Shown piece after piece: positions 4,279 to 23,768 of a stretch of 25,010 nt of DNA (positions are counted from its first letter, which is position 1; each line of letters starts with the position of its first letter). The translations under genes were made by a program, and so were the position numbers. Under the pieces are notes generated by a model. It was given only the letters and a program-made list of their open reading frames with translations, did not search any database and was not told the DNA's origin. Source of the DNA: a virus; IMG/VR virus record IMGVR_UViG_3300028388_004410, positions 1 through 25,010 of that record. One strand, written 5' to 3'.

Positions 4279-4693
4279 TAGCTGCGCCTCCGTCAATGGT
4301 TTGTGAGGTCAGATACGCGCTGCCGGCAGAACCGCCGTCAACGACTTGTGATAATAAGTAAACGCTATTAGCTGAACCGCCGTCGATCCCCGCTATATCG
4401 CCACCACCCGTTCCTCCAACAACACCCCAACTGTCGTTCAACCAAACTTTTATGGGCGGCGGCGTTTCACTTGTGTCAAACCAAACAAAGTTTTCTCCTG
4501 GTGTTAATGGCTCAGCATCCCCAATGTACATACCATTAGAGGATTCAATCCAGGTATTACCGTCGTAGATCTTAAGCGACGGAACCGGCCCGCCTGTGTC
4601 TACCCAAGAATCTCCAATTAAGGGGTTGACTGGTGGTGTAGCGCCAGTAACTATGACGCTATTGCGTGTGTTGCATCCCCATAAAAGTGTCAT
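4271..4693 (-). CDS. small fibre-associated protein with two beta modules and DGGSA repeats
   Basis: This is a 140-aa protein whose ATG overlaps the TAA of the collagen-like gene by one base (TAATG). Two similar modules are visible: residues ~17-52 (GATPPVNPLIGDSWVDT, then SLKIYDGNTW) and ~56-90 (IGDAEPLTPGENFVWFDT, then IKVWLNDSWG). These resemble the short 'G..P..G..W.DT...LK.Y.G..W' units common in phage fibres and baseplate proteins. After a Gly-rich linker the C-terminus has three repeats of the type (I/V)DGGSAxSxYLxSQ, a motif seen at the end of phage tail proteins. The job is probably structural, as fibre connector or decoration, by position between two fibre genes. I do not recognise a named family for the whole protein. 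Confidence 0.68.
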   Translation of the reverse strand: MTLLWGCNTRNSVIVTGATPPVNPLIGDSWVDTGGPVPSLKIYDGNTWIESSNGMYIGDAEPLTPGENFVWFDTSETPPPIKVWLNDSWGVVGGTGGGDIAGIDGGSANSVYLLSQVVDGGSAGSAYLTSQTIDGGAANG

Positions 4694-6315
4694 TAGTCTG
4701 CCCCGCTCAATAGATACTGCTCAACATCATTTATTCTCTTAACAAGAGAATCTATCGTCTGTTGAAGTGAAATGTAGATTTCTGAAAATGAAGACTTTAC
4801 TGCAGAACTAATATGTTCATGCAGTTGATTTATTGGAACATCAACCTTTGTACCGTCATCTAACTGTAAGCGAAGCATTTCTCCATCCAAAATTCCAGCA
4901 ACTACCGTTGATCCGTCACGGCCATCTCTACCGGGCTCGCCCTGTTTGCCTTCTTTCCCACGCTGAGCAAACATCTTTGCACGCCCGTCTGGTAGTACCA
5001 AGAAAGTGGAGCCTTTGTCAATATATAGGTCGCCGGGCTCGTATGTCCTCTTTTCATCCTTGATACCGCACCACTCAAAACCAAACAGGCCAAACCGTTT
5101 CCAATGATCAGAACCGCGGGGATTTTGGCTGGTGTCTTTTACAGCTTTGTAGAGCTTGCCGAAAGCCGCTTGGACAATTGCACCTTCGCGATACACTTCT
5201 CCCGGTTGATGGTACGGAACGTCTATGCCTGCACCGGCTGCACCATCACGACCGTCTTTACCGCGAGTAGCGTGGATGAATTCATCGCATCGCTTTAGGT
5301 CTTCCTCGACCAATTTGCCCATCGCAATGGGGTCAGGTTTAACCCAAAGCTGAAACTCTTCATTCTTTTTCAGAGCTTCAATAACGTCGAGCGGGTTTAC
5401 CGATTTGCCGTCTTGACCGGCATCACCTTTATCGCCGCGCTCACCTTTTTCACCCCGCACCATATCGCGGAAGGTTTTATTGTCAATTAGAGCTTGCGCA
5501 ACAACAAGCGGATCAGATGCTGCACCCGGTGCTCCGTCTTTACCGTCTTTACCGTCTTTACCGTCTCGACCATCACGACCTGCCTTGCCTTCTACTTTGG
5601 CGAGGAAAGCAGGGTTCGCGGCCAACCGGTCAGCAACTTCGTTCGCGTCAACGGATTCGCGAGGTGAGCCCAGTTCCCCACGAACACCACGCACCAGTTC
5701 TTGAAACTCGGTGTCACCCTTTAGTTGACTAACTAATGAATCAAGATTGACCGGCGGTCCTTCGGGCCCGCGAGGCCCTTCTTCACCTTGCTCGCCACGC
5801 ATCAGTTCTTGAAACTCGGTGTCACCCTTTAGTTGACTAACTAATGAATCAAGATTGACCGGCGGTCCTTCGGGTCCGCGAGGTCCTTCTTCACCTTGTT
5901 CGCCACGCACAAGGTTAAGGAAACCTCTAGAACTCATCAAAACCCGTGCTACATCTTCAGGGTTGGCGTCTTTGCCAGCAGGTCCGGGCGTTCTTTCAAG
6001 CTGGTCTAGTCGACCTTTTAGCTCCGCAACCTGTGGTGCAGGGTCGGCTGGTATGCTGGAAAGTCTCCCACGAAGTTCCGCTAATTCGGCAGTCAGCGTG
6101 TGGTATTGTTCCAAAGCTGTTTTGTGACTGCTTTGAAGTCTGTCCGCAACATCTTTTCTTGCTGACGCTATTTCTTCAGTCAGGGCTTCAATATATGAAC
6201 TTTTCTGAGAAAGATCGGCCTCTAGAAGTTCAATGCGCGCAAGCAAGTCTTTGCGCTGCTCACGCATTACGTCGGCAGTTGCTTCTAAGACCGCTTGCGG
6301 TTCAAAGTCGTTCAT
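4693..6315 (-). CDS. collagen-like tail fibre protein
   Basis: This is a 540-aa protein beginning 4 bases after the portal stop. Residues ~1-110 form a charged heptad-rich coiled coil (EQRKDLLARIELLEADLSQK and onward). The rest alternates collagen-like Gly-X-Y blocks (RGEQGEEGPRGPEGPP; GRDGRDGKDGKDGKDGAPG; GEKGERGDKGDAGQDG; GKEGKQGEPGRDGRDG) with small helical segments of the type 'DxxxVxxxLxxxxxFxxLV'. A ~70-residue domain follows near 375-460 with W, Y and Gly residues (EWCGIKDEKRTYEPGDLYID), resembling carbohydrate-binding or head-fibre modules. The C-terminus is again coiled coil. Collagen-like blocks are known as trimerising shafts in phage fibres. Context, immediately upstream of other fibre genes, supports a trimeric tail or head fibre. 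Two copies of a 36-residue block are nearly identical (separate entry). Confidence 0.8.
   Translation of the reverse strand: MNDFEPQAVLEATADVMREQRKDLLARIELLEADLSQKSSYIEALTEEIASARKDVADRLQSSHKTALEQYHTLTAELAELRGRLSSIPADPAPQVAELKGRLDQLERTPGPAGKDANPEDVARVLMSSRGFLNLVRGEQGEEGPRGPEGPPVNLDSLVSQLKGDTEFQELMRGEQGEEGPRGPEGPPVNLDSLVSQLKGDTEFQELVRGVRGELGSPRESVDANEVADRLAANPAFLAKVEGKAGRDGRDGKDGKDGKDGAPGAASDPLVVAQALIDNKTFRDMVRGEKGERGDKGDAGQDGKSVNPLDVIEALKKNEEFQLWVKPDPIAMGKLVEEDLKRCDEFIHATRGKDGRDGAAGAGIDVPYHQPGEVYREGAIVQAAFGKLYKAVKDTSQNPRGSDHWKRFGLFGFEWCGIKDEKRTYEPGDLYIDKGSTFLVLPDGRAKMFAQRGKEGKQGEPGRDGRDGSTVVAGILDGEMLRLQLDDGTKVDVPINQLHEHISSAVKSSFSEIYISLQQTIDSLVKRINDVEQYLLSGAD
5695..5910 (-). repeat. two-copy 108-base tandem in-frame repeat in the collagen-like gene
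   Basis: The copies are 5695-5802 and 5803-5910. By my alignment they differ at four positions, all in the last ~40 bases on the plus strand, and the first ~70 bases are identical. Three differences are silent and one changes Met to Val at the block start (LMRG versus LVRG). Each copy encodes 36 residues: a Gly-X-Y stretch plus the helical linker NLDSLVSQLKGDTEFQEL. The length preserves frame and shaft periodicity, so the event lengthens the fibre by one module. Confidence 0.95.
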
Positions 6316-15642: not shown

Positions 15643-15663
15643 CTGTTAGCCTTTGCCGCCGTT

Positions 15664-15698
15664 ACCCTATACCCTATACCCTATACCCTATACCCTAT
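15664..15698. repeat. five perfect tandem copies of ACCCTAT (ATAGGGT on the coding strand)
   Basis: This 7-base unit occurs five times without error between the VRR-NUC stop and the dCMP deaminase start. The VRR-NUC stop codon TAG is formed by the first unit, and a second in-frame TAG follows three units on. Each unit carries AGGG on the transcript. It is a simple sequence repeat prone to slippage; no function is established. Confidence 0.97.
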
Positions 15699-15976
15699 TG
15701 CCGGTAGCGCTCGTAGAGGCGCTTAGCGCGCGCTACGCTGCGGGCATAGTAGGCCGGTATACCCAGCCGCCGCAACTGGCGCTTACGCCGTACCTGTAAC
15801 TTCCTAATCACACCACCGGGTTTTTTGAACTCTATAAAGAAACACCGACCGCCCGGTAGTATCACCAGTCGGTCGGGTATACCACGCACCCAATTAGGGT
15901 TCTGCTTGAGACACAACCCACCTTGCTGCGTAACCCAGCGTGTGAACTGCTTCTCGATTTGAGATTCACTTACCAT
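15695..15976 (-). CDS. VRR-NUC domain nuclease
   Basis: This is a 93-aa protein from the ATG at 15976, which overlaps the polymerase end by 11 bases; an upstream GTG at 16015 would add 13 residues. The compact VRR-NUC (PD-(D/E)XK type) pattern is visible: SQIEKQFTRWV with an N-terminal Glu, GGLCLKQNPNWVRGIPDRLV (the G-x-PD motif), then ILPGGRCFFIEFKKPGG (the E-x-K catalytic pair), then the Q and Arg-rich helix and YYARSVARAK. Such stand-alone VRR-NUC proteins are regular partners of SNF2-like helicases in phages and are proposed structure-specific nucleases. Confidence 0.9.
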   Translation of the reverse strand: MVSESQIEKQFTRWVTQQGGLCLKQNPNWVRGIPDRLVILPGGRCFFIEFKKPGGVIRKLQVRRKRQLRRLGIPAYYARSVARAKRLYERYRQ

Positions 15977-17534
15977 ACCGTTCAGCAGCCACACCTTCTG
16001 CGGCAAGTGGCACACGGTTTATCAGATCGTCACTATCAGCCCAATCTGGCAATCGGCAGATTATACCTTCAAACCTTCTTGCCAATCTGTGCGGGTTACG
16101 ATAGTCGTGCAAAGTGATAATCTCATCATGGACTGTGCCGATATTTTTGAAACCTTCTTTGCTTCCCTGCCACATTCCGTAAACCATTATGTCACGGGCA
16201 ATTCCTTGCACTGCATTCTCTGTTTCTTTGCCGCCATACAGTGATTCTTCTACTGGGAACCCGCGATCAGTTACGGCTTCAAAGACTACTTGATCCCTGA
16301 CTTTATTGAACTTGTTTACTTTTTCAACCCGTGCCTTTGGGTATTTGATATATCGTCCGCTTGGTAGCCACATTCCAAGCGTACTACCGTCATATACGAA
16401 GTGCATACCGCGTGCAAAATCTCTATTCTTTATGAACACTTTACGCCGTGGGTTTTTTACTGCACGGAGTGCCGTTTCTTCAATATCCCGCCAGTATTTC
16501 TTTATCTTGGCATATCGTTCACGATAACCCAATACAGCTGTCTTAGCCATATCTATCGCTTCAGGGTTAAAATGTTTTTCTTCACGACTACCGATATTTT
16601 TACCATTGATACGAATAGGTATACCGGCTATATCATCACTACCTTTTGCTTCCATTTGGCAAAGGAACGTAATAATCCACATACTATAGCCGCAGCCAAG
16701 TATTGTATCTTTACCTAGCTTACGTTTTGAACTTTGTTCTATGTCACCTATTTTATGTCCTGCTAATATTTCATCAGGATCTTCATTGAACACATCGCCG
16801 GCCATGTCTACATAGACATCTTTGCCTTCATGAAACATCAGTGTCAAATCATCTTGACGCGCAAGCCAAGCTAACACGCGGGCCTCAATCGCACTATAGT
16901 CCGCCCGTACCAAAAGTTGTCCAACGGGTGCCTTGAACATCCCACGCATACAGCTACCGACCGCTTCCAGCACTGATACGGGGTTATCGTCGTCACCAGG
17001 GTAGCGTGCTTCAAGCTCATCAAACTTTTCTTCGTGCAGAAGTTCTATTACTTCATCAACTTCTTTAATCGTAGGACGTATGAAATTATGCGGCTGTAGC
17101 CCGACAGCCGTAAATCGACCGGGACCTGCACCATGATATATGAAACCACCACGCATTCGTGCATCACCGCTATCCATAGCCTGCATCTTTAACAGTTTCT
17201 TAGTAGCAACTCTACCTTGCTCTAATCGAATGCGGATTACTTCACGTATTTCAGGTTCTAGTTGCTCAGTTTTGAGTATGCGCTCAAGTGTCACCCGTTG
17301 CAGGTTTTTGATTTTAGGGTTGACGCTGGCTAACCACTGTTGCAGTTCGCCTACCTGCGTCGGTGCAATGCCGCCGGTAATGCGTCGGCATTGGCGGCTG
17401 CGCTTACGAGCGTAGCGTTTGAGAAACTTAACCGTTTTATCGACCAATGGCCGGTCGATGGGTAGGCCGCGCTCATTCATGCGCAGGGTTTCTTGAAAAA
17501 CCCAATGCTCCATATCATTAGCCAGCCAATTCAT
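15966..17534 (-). CDS. family A DNA polymerase, polymerase domain only
   Basis: This is a 522-aa protein. The ATG at 17534 is chosen because AAGGA lies 7 bases upstream, and it overlaps the exonuclease gene by 17 bases. An ATG at 17513 (7 residues shorter) is an alternative. The polymerase motifs are complete: motif A ADYSAIEARV (Asp212), motif B KRKLGKDTILGCGYS (~270-284) and motif C GTVHDEII (His469-Asp470-Glu471). The N-terminal ~100 residues are the thumb-like MNERGLPIDR region that in most phage Pol I proteins follows directly after the exonuclease within the same polypeptide. Here the proofreading domain is encoded separately upstream in the other frame. It copies the phage genome. Confidence 0.94.
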   Translation of the reverse strand: MNWLANDMEHWVFQETLRMNERGLPIDRPLVDKTVKFLKRYARKRSRQCRRITGGIAPTQVGELQQWLASVNPKIKNLQRVTLERILKTEQLEPEIREVIRIRLEQGRVATKKLLKMQAMDSGDARMRGGFIYHGAGPGRFTAVGLQPHNFIRPTIKEVDEVIELLHEEKFDELEARYPGDDDNPVSVLEAVGSCMRGMFKAPVGQLLVRADYSAIEARVLAWLARQDDLTLMFHEGKDVYVDMAGDVFNEDPDEILAGHKIGDIEQSSKRKLGKDTILGCGYSMWIITFLCQMEAKGSDDIAGIPIRINGKNIGSREEKHFNPEAIDMAKTAVLGYRERYAKIKKYWRDIEETALRAVKNPRRKVFIKNRDFARGMHFVYDGSTLGMWLPSGRYIKYPKARVEKVNKFNKVRDQVVFEAVTDRGFPVEESLYGGKETENAVQGIARDIMVYGMWQGSKEGFKNIGTVHDEIITLHDYRNPHRLARRFEGIICRLPDWADSDDLINRVPLAAEGVAAERYGK

Positions 17535-18063
17535 GCCATATTCCTTGCTCAGTAGCTGTGTCAGTTTTGCAGTAGTTTTGAAAATCAAGCCAGTCAGTGG
17601 GGAACTCCCACGGCCAATTACGTTTAGATGGACGAGATTGTGTGGGCTTGCGGGGCGTGCAAAATTTGCGAATTAGAAAACCACCACGCGTATCTTTTTG
17701 TACTGGCAAATCTAATGCAGCACCCGCACCTGCCAAGCTCTTGGGTAGACCATTCACCAATGCCAATGCGGCGGTATCGTGCATGTTACGCAGTTTTGGG
17801 TGAATACCGAGCACATGTCTCAATATGTTTAATTCAAACTCAATATTATGAGCGCAGATTGGTCCGCGAGCCAATGAATCATGCAAGTGGTTAGGCAAAC
17901 AATCATAGTCCCACGGCCCTTCGGGCAACCATAGCTCAGGCTCATCATTATCGTATGCCCATGACATCATAAGCACTTCACATGACCGATGACGTGCATA
18001 AGCCTGGGCACCGACTTCACGCACATCAATATCACAGTATGTCTCAAAATCAATATGGAGCAT
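17518..18063 (-). CDS. DnaQ-like 3'-5' exonuclease (proofreading domain of the split polymerase)
   Basis: This is a 181-aa protein. Exo I is IDFET (Asp5, Glu7), Exo II is AHNIEFE (71-77), the substrate region is MHDTAALALVNGLPKSLAGA near 113, and Exo III is YCKTDTATEQ (Tyr164, Asp168). These are the DEDDy-type elements that in phage family A polymerases form the N-terminal domain. The frame stops right after GIWHELAG, exactly where the polymerase domain would begin in a single-chain enzyme. The next gene's ATG precedes this stop by 14 bases. The start overlaps the 60-aa gene stop by one base (TAATG). It may act as a separate subunit in trans. Confidence 0.88.
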   Translation of the reverse strand: MLHIDFETYCDIDVREVGAQAYARHRSCEVLMMSWAYDNDEPELWLPEGPWDYDCLPNHLHDSLARGPICAHNIEFELNILRHVLGIHPKLRNMHDTAALALVNGLPKSLAGAGAALDLPVQKDTRGGFLIRKFCTPRKPTQSRPSKRNWPWEFPTDWLDFQNYCKTDTATEQGIWHELAG

Positions 18064-18288: not shown

Positions 18289-19053
18289 TTAGAAGAGTTC
18301 GTCGTCATCGTCATCGTCGTCATGGTCGTCTTCTATTTCTTCGCGGCGGCGACGACGGCGTGTCGGTTTGTCCGCCTTGCGCCGGCTGCGCCGGCTTGGG
18401 CGCTCCTCTTCTTCATCGTCATCAGTAGTAGAGTAACCACTGGCAAATACATCTTCGCCGGTTTCCTCTTCATCGAACGCTGTATCGACGTTCACACCAC
18501 CAGCACCCAACTGTTCGCCAGTCTTGAGGTATTGGACCGCCTGTAGGTAGCAGGCGACGCCCTTGCCACCTTGCTGATCGTATGGGTAGAAACGTACAGC
18601 CGCTTTCACGTAAACACCGCTGAAGAAAATATCCTCCAGGTTGTCCAACGTGCGCATATCGCGCTTGAAGTTGTCGATGATGGGCGGTGGCTTTTTACCT
18701 TCTGATGCACCAACAGCATTGAAGAAAACCTTACCCTGATAGGTCGGGTCATCTTCAAACTCCAGGTCGCCGTTGCGCAGCACACACCGCAGCTTGCCGG
18801 ATTTGCAAAGCTGACTGAATTTTGCGCCGAATGCTTCTTCGCCAATTGCGGTGATGCGCTCACGGATGCGCTCGATCTCTGCCTTGTCCTTCTTCTTGTC
18901 GAAGATGGCTTGCAGGCTGTATCTCGCCAGCTTCTCGGGGTCATTGGTCCACGGTTCAATCACATGCTGATAGGACATGCGAAATGGACCAATGGTCATA
19001 GTTTTCAACAGTTCGGGGTCAATGTCGAACTTTTTACGGGTTTGTTTTGCCAT
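18289..19053 (-). CDS. DUF2815-type single-stranded DNA-binding protein
   Basis: This is a 254-aa protein. The folded part (~1-185) has DUF2815 features: IGPFRMSYQHVIEPW near 22, KSGKLRCVLRNGDLEF, YQGKVFFNAVGASEGKKPP, IFFSGVYVKAAVRFYPYD, and GKGVACYLQAVQYLKTGEQL. The C-terminal third is low-complexity: an acidic patch (DEEETGEDVF), an Arg/Lys-rich block (RRSRRKADKPTRRRRRREE) and a terminal run of Asp ending ELF. A terminal acidic tail with a final Phe is the hallmark of SSB and T7 gp2.5-type proteins, which use it to dock polymerase and helicase. It sits 7 bases after the DUF2800 nuclease, a recurrent phage pairing. Confidence 0.85.
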   Translation of the reverse strand: MAKQTRKKFDIDPELLKTMTIGPFRMSYQHVIEPWTNDPEKLARYSLQAIFDKKKDKAEIERIRERITAIGEEAFGAKFSQLCKSGKLRCVLRNGDLEFEDDPTYQGKVFFNAVGASEGKKPPPIIDNFKRDMRTLDNLEDIFFSGVYVKAAVRFYPYDQQGGKGVACYLQAVQYLKTGEQLGAGGVNVDTAFDEEETGEDVFASGYSTTDDDEEEERPSRRSRRKADKPTRRRRRREEIEDDHDDDDDDDELF

Positions 19054-19060
19054 GTTTTAC

Positions 19061-20209
19061 TTACTCTTCGGGTTCAATATCGAACCAATCAGGTTCAGTT
19101 GCTTCAGGGTTATCGGTTTCTACTATGATCGTGCCGGTTTCCTCACGTGTTGTCAACGCTTCAACGCTGCCTTTGCCCAATAGTTTTTCAACTTGGGCGG
19201 GGCTGCGCACTGTTTGCTGATACAATACATCATCAGCAAAATACAGTTCAAGGTCTTCAGAGGATAATGCCCACTTACGGTTTCCGAGTTTCGTTTTCAA
19301 ATCCCAGTATGGAATATGTCCGCCGTCTTGCATAAAGCGTAATGCATAAGCACTTACTTCACTCATCCAACGGCGCATACCAGGTAATTCACGCAATAGG
19401 TGGCTAAGTTCTTCGGGTTCAAGTAACGAGGGTTCACGGTATGCTATTTCAGTTTCTACAATGTCCTCAAATGCACGCCTAGCCTGCCGTAACTCGTATT
19501 CTGCTAATGCACGGCAAACACCCTGTGCAGGGCAAAACCGACAAGCACCGTCAGGTTGCGGGCGAAAATGTGCATGTGCAGGGTTCAGGGCTTCTTTTGC
19601 GCGGTGACGTATTCTATCACCCCAGTCTAGTAATTCTTCAATTGAAAGCCGCCATTCTCTATTTATCCCATCCGCATGATACGTCCGAGGCTGACTAATG
19701 ACCAGAACAATCTCAGTAAAGTCGTAACCATCATCGCAAAAATCAGCGTAAGCACCCAAACCATAAATGATAAGTTGAAGATTATCAACAATGTCAACAG
19801 CAACACGCACACCAAACTTGAGATCAATGATGTACAGTGGTCCTTTGTCGATAGGTATGATAACATCTGCCGTCCCCTTGCAATGTCGTGTTCGTAAAAA
19901 CCGTTGCGGATTTACTCGTCTTTCACGATATATTGGAGGATTATCATATAAGTCACGAATATGCTGCACATATTCAATCGTATATGGCAAGTATTCTTTT
20001 TCTTCTGGTGTACGGTACCTTACCGCAAATGGGTTTTCCATACCAAGTGCGGTAGCCAATGTTTCATGTGCCAATGTACCTTCAGTGGCATATGGACTTT
20101 CTTCTGCTGTCAGATTAAGGCTTTCTATAAACTCTACACTAGCTGTGCAGTGATACCACCGATGCGCCGCACTAGGCGCGAGCTTACTATGCCGACCACC
20201 GTTAGCCAT
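19061..20209 (-). CDS. DUF2800 family PD-(D/E)XK nuclease with probable Fe-S cluster
   Basis: This is a 382-aa protein. Seen in order are AAHRWYHC (Cys21), EGTLAHETLA (Glu43, His48), GTADVIIPID (Asp115), IIDLKFG (Asp129, Lys131), QLIIYGLGA (the Gln-containing helix typical of RecB-like nucleases), then CRFCPAQGVC (Cys223, Cys226, Cys232). One N-terminal plus three C-terminal cysteines is the arrangement that holds a [4Fe-4S] cluster in Cas4/AddB-type nucleases. It is the usual upstream partner of DUF2815 in phage replication modules. A DNA exonuclease working with the ssDNA-binding protein in recombination is inferred. The C-terminal ~130 residues are acidic and less conserved-looking. Confidence 0.87.
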   Translation of the reverse strand: MANGGRHSKLAPSAAHRWYHCTASVEFIESLNLTAEESPYATEGTLAHETLATALGMENPFAVRYRTPEEKEYLPYTIEYVQHIRDLYDNPPIYRERRVNPQRFLRTRHCKGTADVIIPIDKGPLYIIDLKFGVRVAVDIVDNLQLIIYGLGAYADFCDDGYDFTEIVLVISQPRTYHADGINREWRLSIEELLDWGDRIRHRAKEALNPAHAHFRPQPDGACRFCPAQGVCRALAEYELRQARRAFEDIVETEIAYREPSLLEPEELSHLLRELPGMRRWMSEVSAYALRFMQDGGHIPYWDLKTKLGNRKWALSSEDLELYFADDVLYQQTVRSPAQVEKLLGKGSVEALTTREETGTIIVETDNPEATEPDWFDIEPEE

Positions 20210-21374: not shown

Positions 21375-23768
21375 ATGGTACTACATACACACCTGCAACG
21401 CAACCCCGTAAAAATCAGCTATAGCACGCGCGGTCCTAAAGCACGCCGACGTGAAGCTAACCTAAAAACCATAGAATTCCCCAGCTTTACCAGCCTGCAA
21501 CGTTGGCTGCGTAAAGAAAGCGGCACCGCCAGCCGTAAGGAAGGCCCCTACATAATCGCCGGGCCAACCATAAAAGGCACATCTCACTCCAAAAACAATA
21601 TTGGCAACCTGGGCTGTATCATCATAGAATTTGATGGTAAAGCCGACGGGCCTACTGTGTCGCTAACTGATGCAGTGGCTTTGTTTGAAGCTGCCGACAT
21701 TGCTGTATTTGGCTATGAAACTTGGAGCCATGAACCCGATGCCGACCGCTGGCGTATTATTATAGCGACCAGTCGGCAAATAAACGTCAACGGCAGTATG
21801 GAACTGTTAAAGGTATTTGATTACCTGAAAACACAGTTCAGTGAAGAGTTTGGCGTTATCATCGGCCACGAAACAAAGAACCATAACCGTATCTGGTACA
21901 CCCCAAGATGGCCAAAAGGACAAACCCGTACCATTAAATCAGTACGTGGTCGAAACTGTCTAGACATTGATGCCATAATTGAATGGCATAAAGACAATGA
22001 ACATTATTTTGAACTACCAAAGCGTAGGTCAAACGAAAAAACCAATGTTGACACTAACTCTACAATTGGAGCATATAATGCAGAACATGACCCACGTGAT
22101 TTGCTGCTTGCAGCGGGGTATCAGCACAAGGGTTCGAGCCATAGCAGTGACATTGGTTTAGGTGTTGAGCGGTATAGCTGCCCATTTGACCCCGACACAC
22201 AGCCTGGAGTTATGGCGTTTGAACAGCCAGATGGTTGGTGGCGTATCTATAGCCACCATGTAGAAATGGACCCATTGTGGAATAAAGATGGTTATTCACA
22301 CGATGCTTTCAGTGTTTATGTGGAACTAGAACATGATGGTGATAGAGATGCTGCGCTGCGGACGTTACAAATTGATTCGTTTGATATTGAAGAGGATGTT
22401 GATATTGACACATCAGAACCGCCGATTACTGAGCCAAAAACAACCAACACGGTTGATTCACTCATTGAACGACTGCCGCCGGTGCATCAAATACTAGCCA
22501 GTCAACTGCTAACCTGCCCGGTTTACCCACTACGAAATATCGCGTTGTTCGGTAGTATTGCCATTGCACAGATGCTTGCAAATAGAATGCCATATTTAGA
22601 AAGCGGTGATGATGACAAAATATATGGAAATTGCTATTATCTATTTCTTGCTAAGACAGGTGCGGGTAAGAATACAGTGTTGCGGCTGAGCCGCTTATAC
22701 TGTGAAACTATGGGTATCAAAACTATAAGGAAAATAGGTAGCACCGCTGGATTAGAAACACAAATAATGAAAGATGAAAACCATGGGTTGTTGGTTGCAC
22801 TGCAAGATGAATATAACCCTATGAACCCGCAGCAGATAGATATTTCATTGGCATTAAATGAAATGTTCGATGCGGTAGACGGCGTATACGATTTGCGGGC
22901 GTTGAAAGAAGATAGTGATAAAACCTGTGCTAACCCTTTTGCAATGCATGTAGCCTGTACCACACCGACCACACACTTTCACATAGATCCTAAAGCTGGG
23001 TGGATACAAGCTACCGGTGGCAAACTGCGCCGCACGTTAATAGTGCAGTGTGAAGAAAAACGTGTGCGCAATGTAAATCATAAACGCCCCGTCGTGCATA
23101 ATGAAATAAACCAATGGTATGAAAATTTACGTGAACGCTATGGTGCAAAACTACCAGATGAAATAGATAATGACGACAAAAGTGCACTACGCCAGTCTAC
23201 AATTCGTGTGCGGCTTTCTAAAGAAGCACATGACTTTGTAGAGGAAAAGGTAGCGCAAGTGGACAACATACTAAATCAAACAGAAGATGAAATACAGCAT
23301 GCTATACTAACAGGTATGGAGTACCTAGCAAAGAAAATAGCCTTGTCTTTGCGGTTAGGCCGAAGCGTGAAAATCGACAGGCGTCTGACAGTATCCTTTC
23401 AAGAAATGGAATTAGCTTGGGACATAATGGAATATTATGCTGAAACGATGGGTGCGGCGTTGCGTGAGAATATGACGCTAAGCCCATTAGACGCAGACAT
23501 AAGAACAATAAAGAAAAAGGTAATGGAACTATTGGCCAACCCAAAGCAAACTGTGAAGAAATACATAGACTTCAAAAGAGGGGTGTATAAAGAAAGACTC
23601 TTACATGAAGGATTGGTTCCTTGTAGAGTTGTACATAGGTTAGCCGCCAGACAACTAAATAATCCTTTGGACGCCATAATTAGGCAACTCAACCATACAA
23701 ATGAGTTAAAGATAAAAACAATAGAAACTGGCAAGACTAAGCAAAAAGTGCATTTCTACAAACTGTAG
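21375..23768 (+). CDS. primase-helicase (AEP-like N-terminus, DUF3987-like ATPase)
   Basis: This is a 797-aa protein with GGAG 5 bases before the ATG. Residues ~75-200 resemble an archaeo-eukaryotic primase-type core: GCIIIEFDG (Glu85, Asp87), ADRWRIIIATS (Arg125, Arg127) and HNRIWYTPRWPKG. The usual first motif is Asp-x-Asp, so Glu85 is a deviation. Residues ~255-345 hold a small region with Cys, His and Trp (YSCPFDPDTQPG, WWRIYSHH) like primase accessory domains. Residues ~370-620 are the ATPase: Walker A TGAGKNT (Lys432), Walker B LLVALQDEYNP (Asp478-Glu479), sensor-like VACTTPTTHF. The C-terminal ~150 residues are helical and basic. It should open and prime the origin. It is markedly A+T-richer than the structural genes. 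Confidence 0.82.
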   Translation: MVLHTHLQRNPVKISYSTRGPKARRREANLKTIEFPSFTSLQRWLRKESGTASRKEGPYIIAGPTIKGTSHSKNNIGNLGCIIIEFDGKADGPTVSLTDAVALFEAADIAVFGYETWSHEPDADRWRIIIATSRQINVNGSMELLKVFDYLKTQFSEEFGVIIGHETKNHNRIWYTPRWPKGQTRTIKSVRGRNCLDIDAIIEWHKDNEHYFELPKRRSNEKTNVDTNSTIGAYNAEHDPRDLLLAAGYQHKGSSHSSDIGLGVERYSCPFDPDTQPGVMAFEQPDGWWRIYSHHVEMDPLWNKDGYSHDAFSVYVELEHDGDRDAALRTLQIDSFDIEEDVDIDTSEPPITEPKTTNTVDSLIERLPPVHQILASQLLTCPVYPLRNIALFGSIAIAQMLANRMPYLESGDDDKIYGNCYYLFLAKTGAGKNTVLRLSRLYCETMGIKTIRKIGSTAGLETQIMKDENHGLLVALQDEYNPMNPQQIDISLALNEMFDAVDGVYDLRALKEDSDKTCANPFAMHVACTTPTTHFHIDPKAGWIQATGGKLRRTLIVQCEEKRVRNVNHKRPVVHNEINQWYENLRERYGAKLPDEIDNDDKSALRQSTIRVRLSKEAHDFVEEKVAQVDNILNQTEDEIQHAILTGMEYLAKKIALSLRLGRSVKIDRRLTVSFQEMELAWDIMEYYAETMGAALRENMTLSPLDADIRTIKKKVMELLANPKQTVKKYIDFKRGVYKERLLHEGLVPCRVVHRLAARQLNNPLDAIIRQLNHTNELKIKTIETGKTKQKVHFYKL

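Follow-up and report, generated by a model that had tools for sequence, protein, structure and literature searches.

In all phages of the LUZ24 group, the DNA polymerase and the proofreading exonuclease are stated to be encoded by separate genes (PMC3517423); the same paper reports, in one sentence, a similar separate-gene organisation for phiEco32. Gene tables of the Bruynoghevirus phages LUZ24 (gp25 with gp34/gp36) and PaP3 (orf39 with orf32) also list separate exonuclease and polymerase genes, and some PHROGs families, e.g. PHROG 403, bear the name 'DNA polymerase exonuclease subunit'. In the OM43 phages MEP401 and MEP402 a family A polymerase is found in two open reading frames, for which the authors consider an intron (PMC10580990). 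ExnV1 (PDB 7r0t) is described as a standalone viral exonuclease of the DNA polymerase I type, with 314 residues and an extra motif. According to its authors the ExnV1 gene is most likely truncated (PMC9629493), thus it gives no support for a working two-gene enzyme.

The window analysed here is the 25,010-nucleotide stretch at positions 1 to 25,010 of the metagenomic virus record IMGVR_UViG_3300028388_004410 (IMG/VR). It displays a 3′–5′ exonuclease and a family A polymerase on separate genes (Table 1), as does the LUZ24 group. However, LUZ24 and PaP3 have several other genes between the two, whereas in the window they are adjacent and overlapping. In MEP401 and MEP402, as described in PMC10580990, the polymerase domain itself is cut, with a small open reading frame separating the pieces, but in the window the break falls between domains. 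ExnV1 is standalone, like the window exonuclease, but differs in its length and extra motif, and its description (PMC9629493) names no partner polymerase. The window record may be a fragment, so that the genome may hold another polymerase outside it.

Similarity to the LUZ24-type proteins is low. BLASTP of the window exonuclease and polymerase against PaP3 proteins gave no significant similarity, and PHROG 403 did not match the window exonuclease at E 0.1. The exonuclease of a close relative (L043, see below) gives a weak match to this family (E-value = 7e-4). By sequence match, then, the window exonuclease does not appear to be a LUZ24-type subunit. A literature search, weak because subscription papers were outside its coverage, found no description of the adjacent overlapping split of this lineage. 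We read the window split as an independent, adjacent and overlapping variant of a known arrangement and not as a new kind of system.

Table 1. Coordinates of the exonuclease and polymerase genes, their junction and neighbouring genes in the window.
Feature	Coordinates	Strand	Length	Remarks
VRR-NUC-like nuclease gene (neighbour)	15695..15976	-		PF08774, E 4e-4, 20.7 bits, below the cut-off of 23.8; synteny with L043
Family A DNA polymerase gene without exonuclease domain	15966..17534	-	522 aa	ATG at 17534
Overlap of exonuclease and polymerase genes	17518..17534	-	17 bases	polymerase frame +1; within the predicted inter-domain linker
AAGGA, Shine-Dalgarno-like	17542..17546	-		7 bases before the polymerase ATG
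DEDDy 3′–5′ exonuclease gene	17518..18063	-	181 aa	ATG at 18063; stop TAA ending at 17518
Enc34-type ssDNA-binding protein gene (neighbour, replication module)	18289..19053	-		PF10991, E 8e-34; synteny with L043
DUF2800 / PD-(D/E)XK nuclease-like gene (neighbour, replication module)	19061..20209	-		PF10926, E 3e-59; synteny with L043

The replication module is on the minus strand and begins with the DUF2800/PD-(D/E)XK gene, followed by the Enc34-type ssDNA-binding protein, a 60 aa open reading frame, the exonuclease and the polymerase. The VRR-NUC-like nuclease, a deaminase, a SNF2-type helicase, an HNH gene and the packaging and structural genes come after the polymerase. Gene overlaps in the module are not confined to the exonuclease/polymerase pair. 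The stop of the 60 aa open reading frame touches the exonuclease ATG, and the ATG of the VRR-NUC-like gene is 11 bases inside the polymerase gene, overlapping the polymerase stop. A perfect 7-base tandem repeat of TACCCTA (5.1 copies, positions 15663–15698) is situated between the deaminase and VRR-NUC-like genes. Another tandem repeat, of 108 bases in two copies that are 95% alike (positions 5687–5910), is found in a collagen-like gene at 4693–6315, after the portal-like gene. The plus strand carries a 797 aa protein (positions 21375–23768), which shows no Pfam match but is weakly similar to phage DNA primases (PHROG 3022, E-value = 2e-18).

The window exonuclease matches the exonuclease part of PHROG 17, a family of phage DNA polymerases, at profile positions 672–824. 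DEDDy exonucleases characteristically have a DxE pattern in Exo I, an acidic residue (Asp) in Exo II and YxxxD in Exo III. The corresponding residues of the window protein, D5 and E7 (Exo I), E77 (Exo II) and Y164 and D168 (Exo III), are invariant in 25 of 25 aligned exonuclease regions, with Glu in place of the textbook Asp at Exo II in every one. A search of the exonuclease profile against the PDB gave no sequence-level match, and therefore the fold was compared. The AlphaFold2 model (mean pLDDT 95.5) aligns to Klenow fragment 1kfs at residues 351–514 with Z = 13.5 and an rmsd of 2.9 over 147 residues, and to 8jrb with Z = 14.3 and an rmsd of 2.2 over 135 residues; the Klenow ranges given here and below denote the first and last aligned residue only. 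ExnV1 is among the Foldseek matches of the model. The protein has the motifs and the fold of the DEDDy 3′–5′ exonucleases of family A polymerases, and the activity is predicted.

The window polymerase also matches PHROG 17, at positions 817–1231, following the exonuclease match. The Pfam DNA_pol_A score is 51.1 bits, above the cut-off of 34.3. Family A polymerases are recognised by the Asp of motif A, Arg/Lys of motif B and His-Asp-Glu of motif C. All 25 aligned polymerase regions have D212, R271 and K275, and H469-D470-E471 is nearly invariant among them. The AlphaFold2 model (mean pLDDT 89.9) aligns to Klenow 1kfs residues 443–928 (Z = 25.6, rmsd 3.3, 384 residues) and to apPol 5dkt (Z = 26.8, rmsd 2.8, 335 residues). 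By Pfam score, motifs and palm-fingers-thumb fold the protein is a family A catalytic domain. A segment of approximately 25 residues after motif B (AGIPIRINGKNIGSREEKHFNPEA; polymerase residues about 300–325, positions about 16560–16640) is common to the window and the close relative described below, and is absent from five fused relatives aligned with the window polymerase.

The preliminary description of this DNA, made from the sequence alone, reported an exonuclease frame with Exo I, II and III that stops at 17518, a polymerase frame shifted by one base with motifs A, B and C intact, and a polymerase ATG preceded by AAGGA in a 17-base overlap. These coordinates, and the motifs as judged by the alignments above, all agree with the present analysis. 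The polymerase frame is open up to a TTG at 17588 and down to 15966. The AAGGA has a duplex energy of −5.4 kcal/mol for pairing with the 16S 3′ end, and 9.5% of the 537 ATGs on the minus strand have one as good.

In the exonuclease model the Exo III helix occupies residues 155–179 of 181 and the chain ends two residues later. The polymerase model begins with a few poorly ordered residues, and its first helix starts at residue 7. The models thus place the gene break in the inter-domain linker, in keeping with the domain-boundary stop described earlier.

A search of IMG/VR viral contigs with the exonuclease gave two contigs, 3300022688_000072 and 3300022679_000045, at 72% identity, both split at the same point as the window. 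As these are 99.92% identical over 17.76 kb, they are counted as one virus assembled twice (loci L038 and L043). Its gene order agrees with that of the window, beginning at the DUF2800 gene and continuing to terminase, capsid and portal, with 72% identity in the exonuclease and 66% in the polymerase. The catalytic positions of both genes are kept in both viruses. The polymerase starts are homologous (MNWLAND in the window, MTWLAND in the relative) and a 10-base gap just upstream of the polymerase ATG separates the two sequences. The junction of the relative reads ...TCATGACT..., a 4-base ATGA overlap, and the exonuclease stop is not the same as the TAA inside the polymerase gene of the window. 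Relative to the exonuclease, the polymerase frame is offset by +1 in the window and +2 in the relative. The Shine-Dalgarno energy at the polymerase start of the relative is weak (−1.8), so translation of that polymerase would have to rely on coupling.

The same break in a virus at 66–72% amino acid identity indicates that the split is more than chance. The earlier reading, that the split is genuine and the polymerase has a start of its own, is supported by the comparison with related phages that was proposed there, as this one other virus has both the same break and a homologous ATG. A sequencing or assembly error, i.e. an indel in the contig that makes a single frame appear split, could be suspected in a window that is one metagenomic virus record and has mostly fused relatives. 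However, the break lies exactly at the domain boundary, and in both assemblies of the relative the linker is broken as well, with another overlap and another frame offset. A shared error is therefore very unlikely, and we hold the explanation by error to be highly improbable.

The overlap of the two frames, and the predominance of the fused form among relatives, would suit a programmed frameshift or ribosomal hop that joins the frames into a fused polymerase as main or minor product. Fusion genes made by programmed frameshift keep a conserved relative frame, but the offset is not the same in the two viruses. The shift needed would be +1 in one and +2/−1 in the other, and thus a fixed frameshift cannot be a conserved mechanism. 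The polymerase moreover has its own conserved ATG. The +1 frameshift with a minor fusion product suggested in the preliminary description is not supported by this comparison, and joining of the frames by either device seems quite improbable. Its other suggestion, proofreading supplied in trans, fits the data and is the likely reading.

Between window and relative, the exonuclease has a pN/pS ratio of 0.23 and the polymerase one of 0.31, in both cases with saturated synonymous sites; by these ratios both genes are under purifying selection. Detachment of the exonuclease from the polymerase might suggest a remnant in the course of being lost. Decay of this kind is extremely improbable, however, given the low exonuclease pN/pS at such divergence and the conservation of five of five catalytic positions in both viruses. 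The exonuclease might instead have become an independent nuclease, acting in recombination or host DNA degradation, and have left the polymerase without proofreading. NrnC and RNase D, which are DEDDy exonucleases of other roles, share the fold of the model in structure comparison. Nevertheless each of the two viruses keeps the genes side by side and overlapping, and the exonuclease sequence stays in the polymerase-exonuclease family, with 29–44% identity to the fused relatives aligned, which makes an independent role quite improbable.

We consider it very probable that the split is a linker fission in the common ancestor of the window virus and the 3300022688_000072/3300022679_000045 virus, with halves that are translated separately and most likely act together, proofreading being in trans. 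A fused family A polymerase gene (3′–5′ exonuclease plus polymerase) would have been cut in the inter-domain linker, and both halves retained as working genes. Ribosomes would translate the exonuclease as far as the overlap and terminate there; the polymerase would then be started at its own ATG, by these or by fresh ribosomes, through its own ribosome-binding site and/or coupling to exonuclease termination. The Shine-Dalgarno-like site may help in the window, and the ATGA coupling would serve in the relative. The two polypeptides would most likely associate by means of the interface that fused enzymes have within one chain, to form a two-subunit replicative polymerase in which proofreading is probably supplied in trans.

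A further proposal is that the exonuclease, made by fission into a subunit translated on its own, has its amount relative to the polymerase fixed by the overlap of the two genes, and that the re-framed overlap is an evolved tuning of the exonuclease:polymerase ratio. This is rather unlikely; if true, the overlap (4 bases of ATGA versus 17 bases plus an own ribosome-binding site) would adjust the mutation rate through this ratio. The pair appears to be a natural minimal two-gene Klenow-like polymerase, cut exactly between domains in a lineage rich in fused relatives. It allows one to ask whether a DEDDy exonuclease that lacks a covalent tether can edit in trans, and how the splitting of a gene is tolerated.

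Further searches for the split arrangement added no other virus. A protein-only search of viral contigs for close polymerase relatives returned none, and genome contigs searched with a two-sequence alignment and a DNA pattern gave no match, i.e. no cellular or prophage copy. The plasmid search gave only matches below 60% identity. Eleven loci came from a terminase-based search for group members, two of them the contigs already known; L049 from this search is a 4-kb contig at 72% identity that is too short for the polymerase region. A first DNA pattern for the polymerase recovered the known contigs again, and a second added L074 and L075, which match parts of the polymerase only and were not counted. 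Only one other split virus was found, and the evidence for the split therefore comes from two lineages.

In a first set of related loci, 38 of 39 show a single frame, the exception being the split relative (L038); of these 38, all but L026 extend to the junction, which leaves 37. A further set of 10 loci contains, besides L074 and L075, 8 that extend to the junction, each of them in one frame. With the window left aside, a total of 46 loci span the junction and 45 of them are fused; near-identical viruses are counted separately here and five named phage records are included. The earlier statement that the two domains are one protein in most phages holds for these loci, but it has to be supplemented by the LUZ24 group and phiEco32, for which PMC3517423 gives separate genes.

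The nearest named relatives, P26218, ctfPj964, ctvy9321, MJing1 and Donnerlittchen, all carry the fused form. In Rhodoferax phage P26218, Podoviridae ctfPj964, Myoviridae ctvy9321 and Microcystis phage MJing1 the domain order of the window is found in one uninterrupted gene, with 32–36% identity to the window polymerase. A helicase gene is found two places after the polymerase in P26218 and ctfPj964, and a DUF2800 gene before it in MJing1. The fused P26218 polymerase matches 1,648 named phage records. The best 60 rows of the 1,648, several of which are duplicate records of one phage, are all in one piece. Among 60 rows spread over the ranking, 56 are in one piece (including H165–H167, which do not reach the junction) and four in two pieces. 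None of these four named phages is annotated with a break at the exonuclease/polymerase junction.

Four phages were considered as further splits and rejected. Sodalis phage SO-1 has an annotated self-splicing intron, demigod and MR14 each have a single long CDS, and in Vibrio phage VP16T the break is near the C-terminus. VP16T carries there a separate 62 aa open reading frame (L060:3474–3662) with a 4-base overlap, which may be an error or a real split.

The window and L038 are paired (100/100) in a 30-row polymerase tree and sit in a 99/99 clade of 21 rows that otherwise consists of fused sequences. As 45 of 46 other junction-spanning loci are fused, the split looks like a single fission within one lineage of phages. 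When 'split' is mapped as a label on the tree with PaP3 included, two changes are needed. PaP3 is found apart on a very long branch, its place is unsure and some joins may be false. Independence of the fission from the LUZ24-type split is thus likely, being favoured and not proved, and points to more than one origin of the LUZ24-type arrangement.

One family A polymerase in an IMG/VR contig (L036:3700–4860) contains an in-frame insert of approximately 320 aa, which begins with CLAGDTPVLT and ends with VHN before a Cys. The insert looks like an intein.
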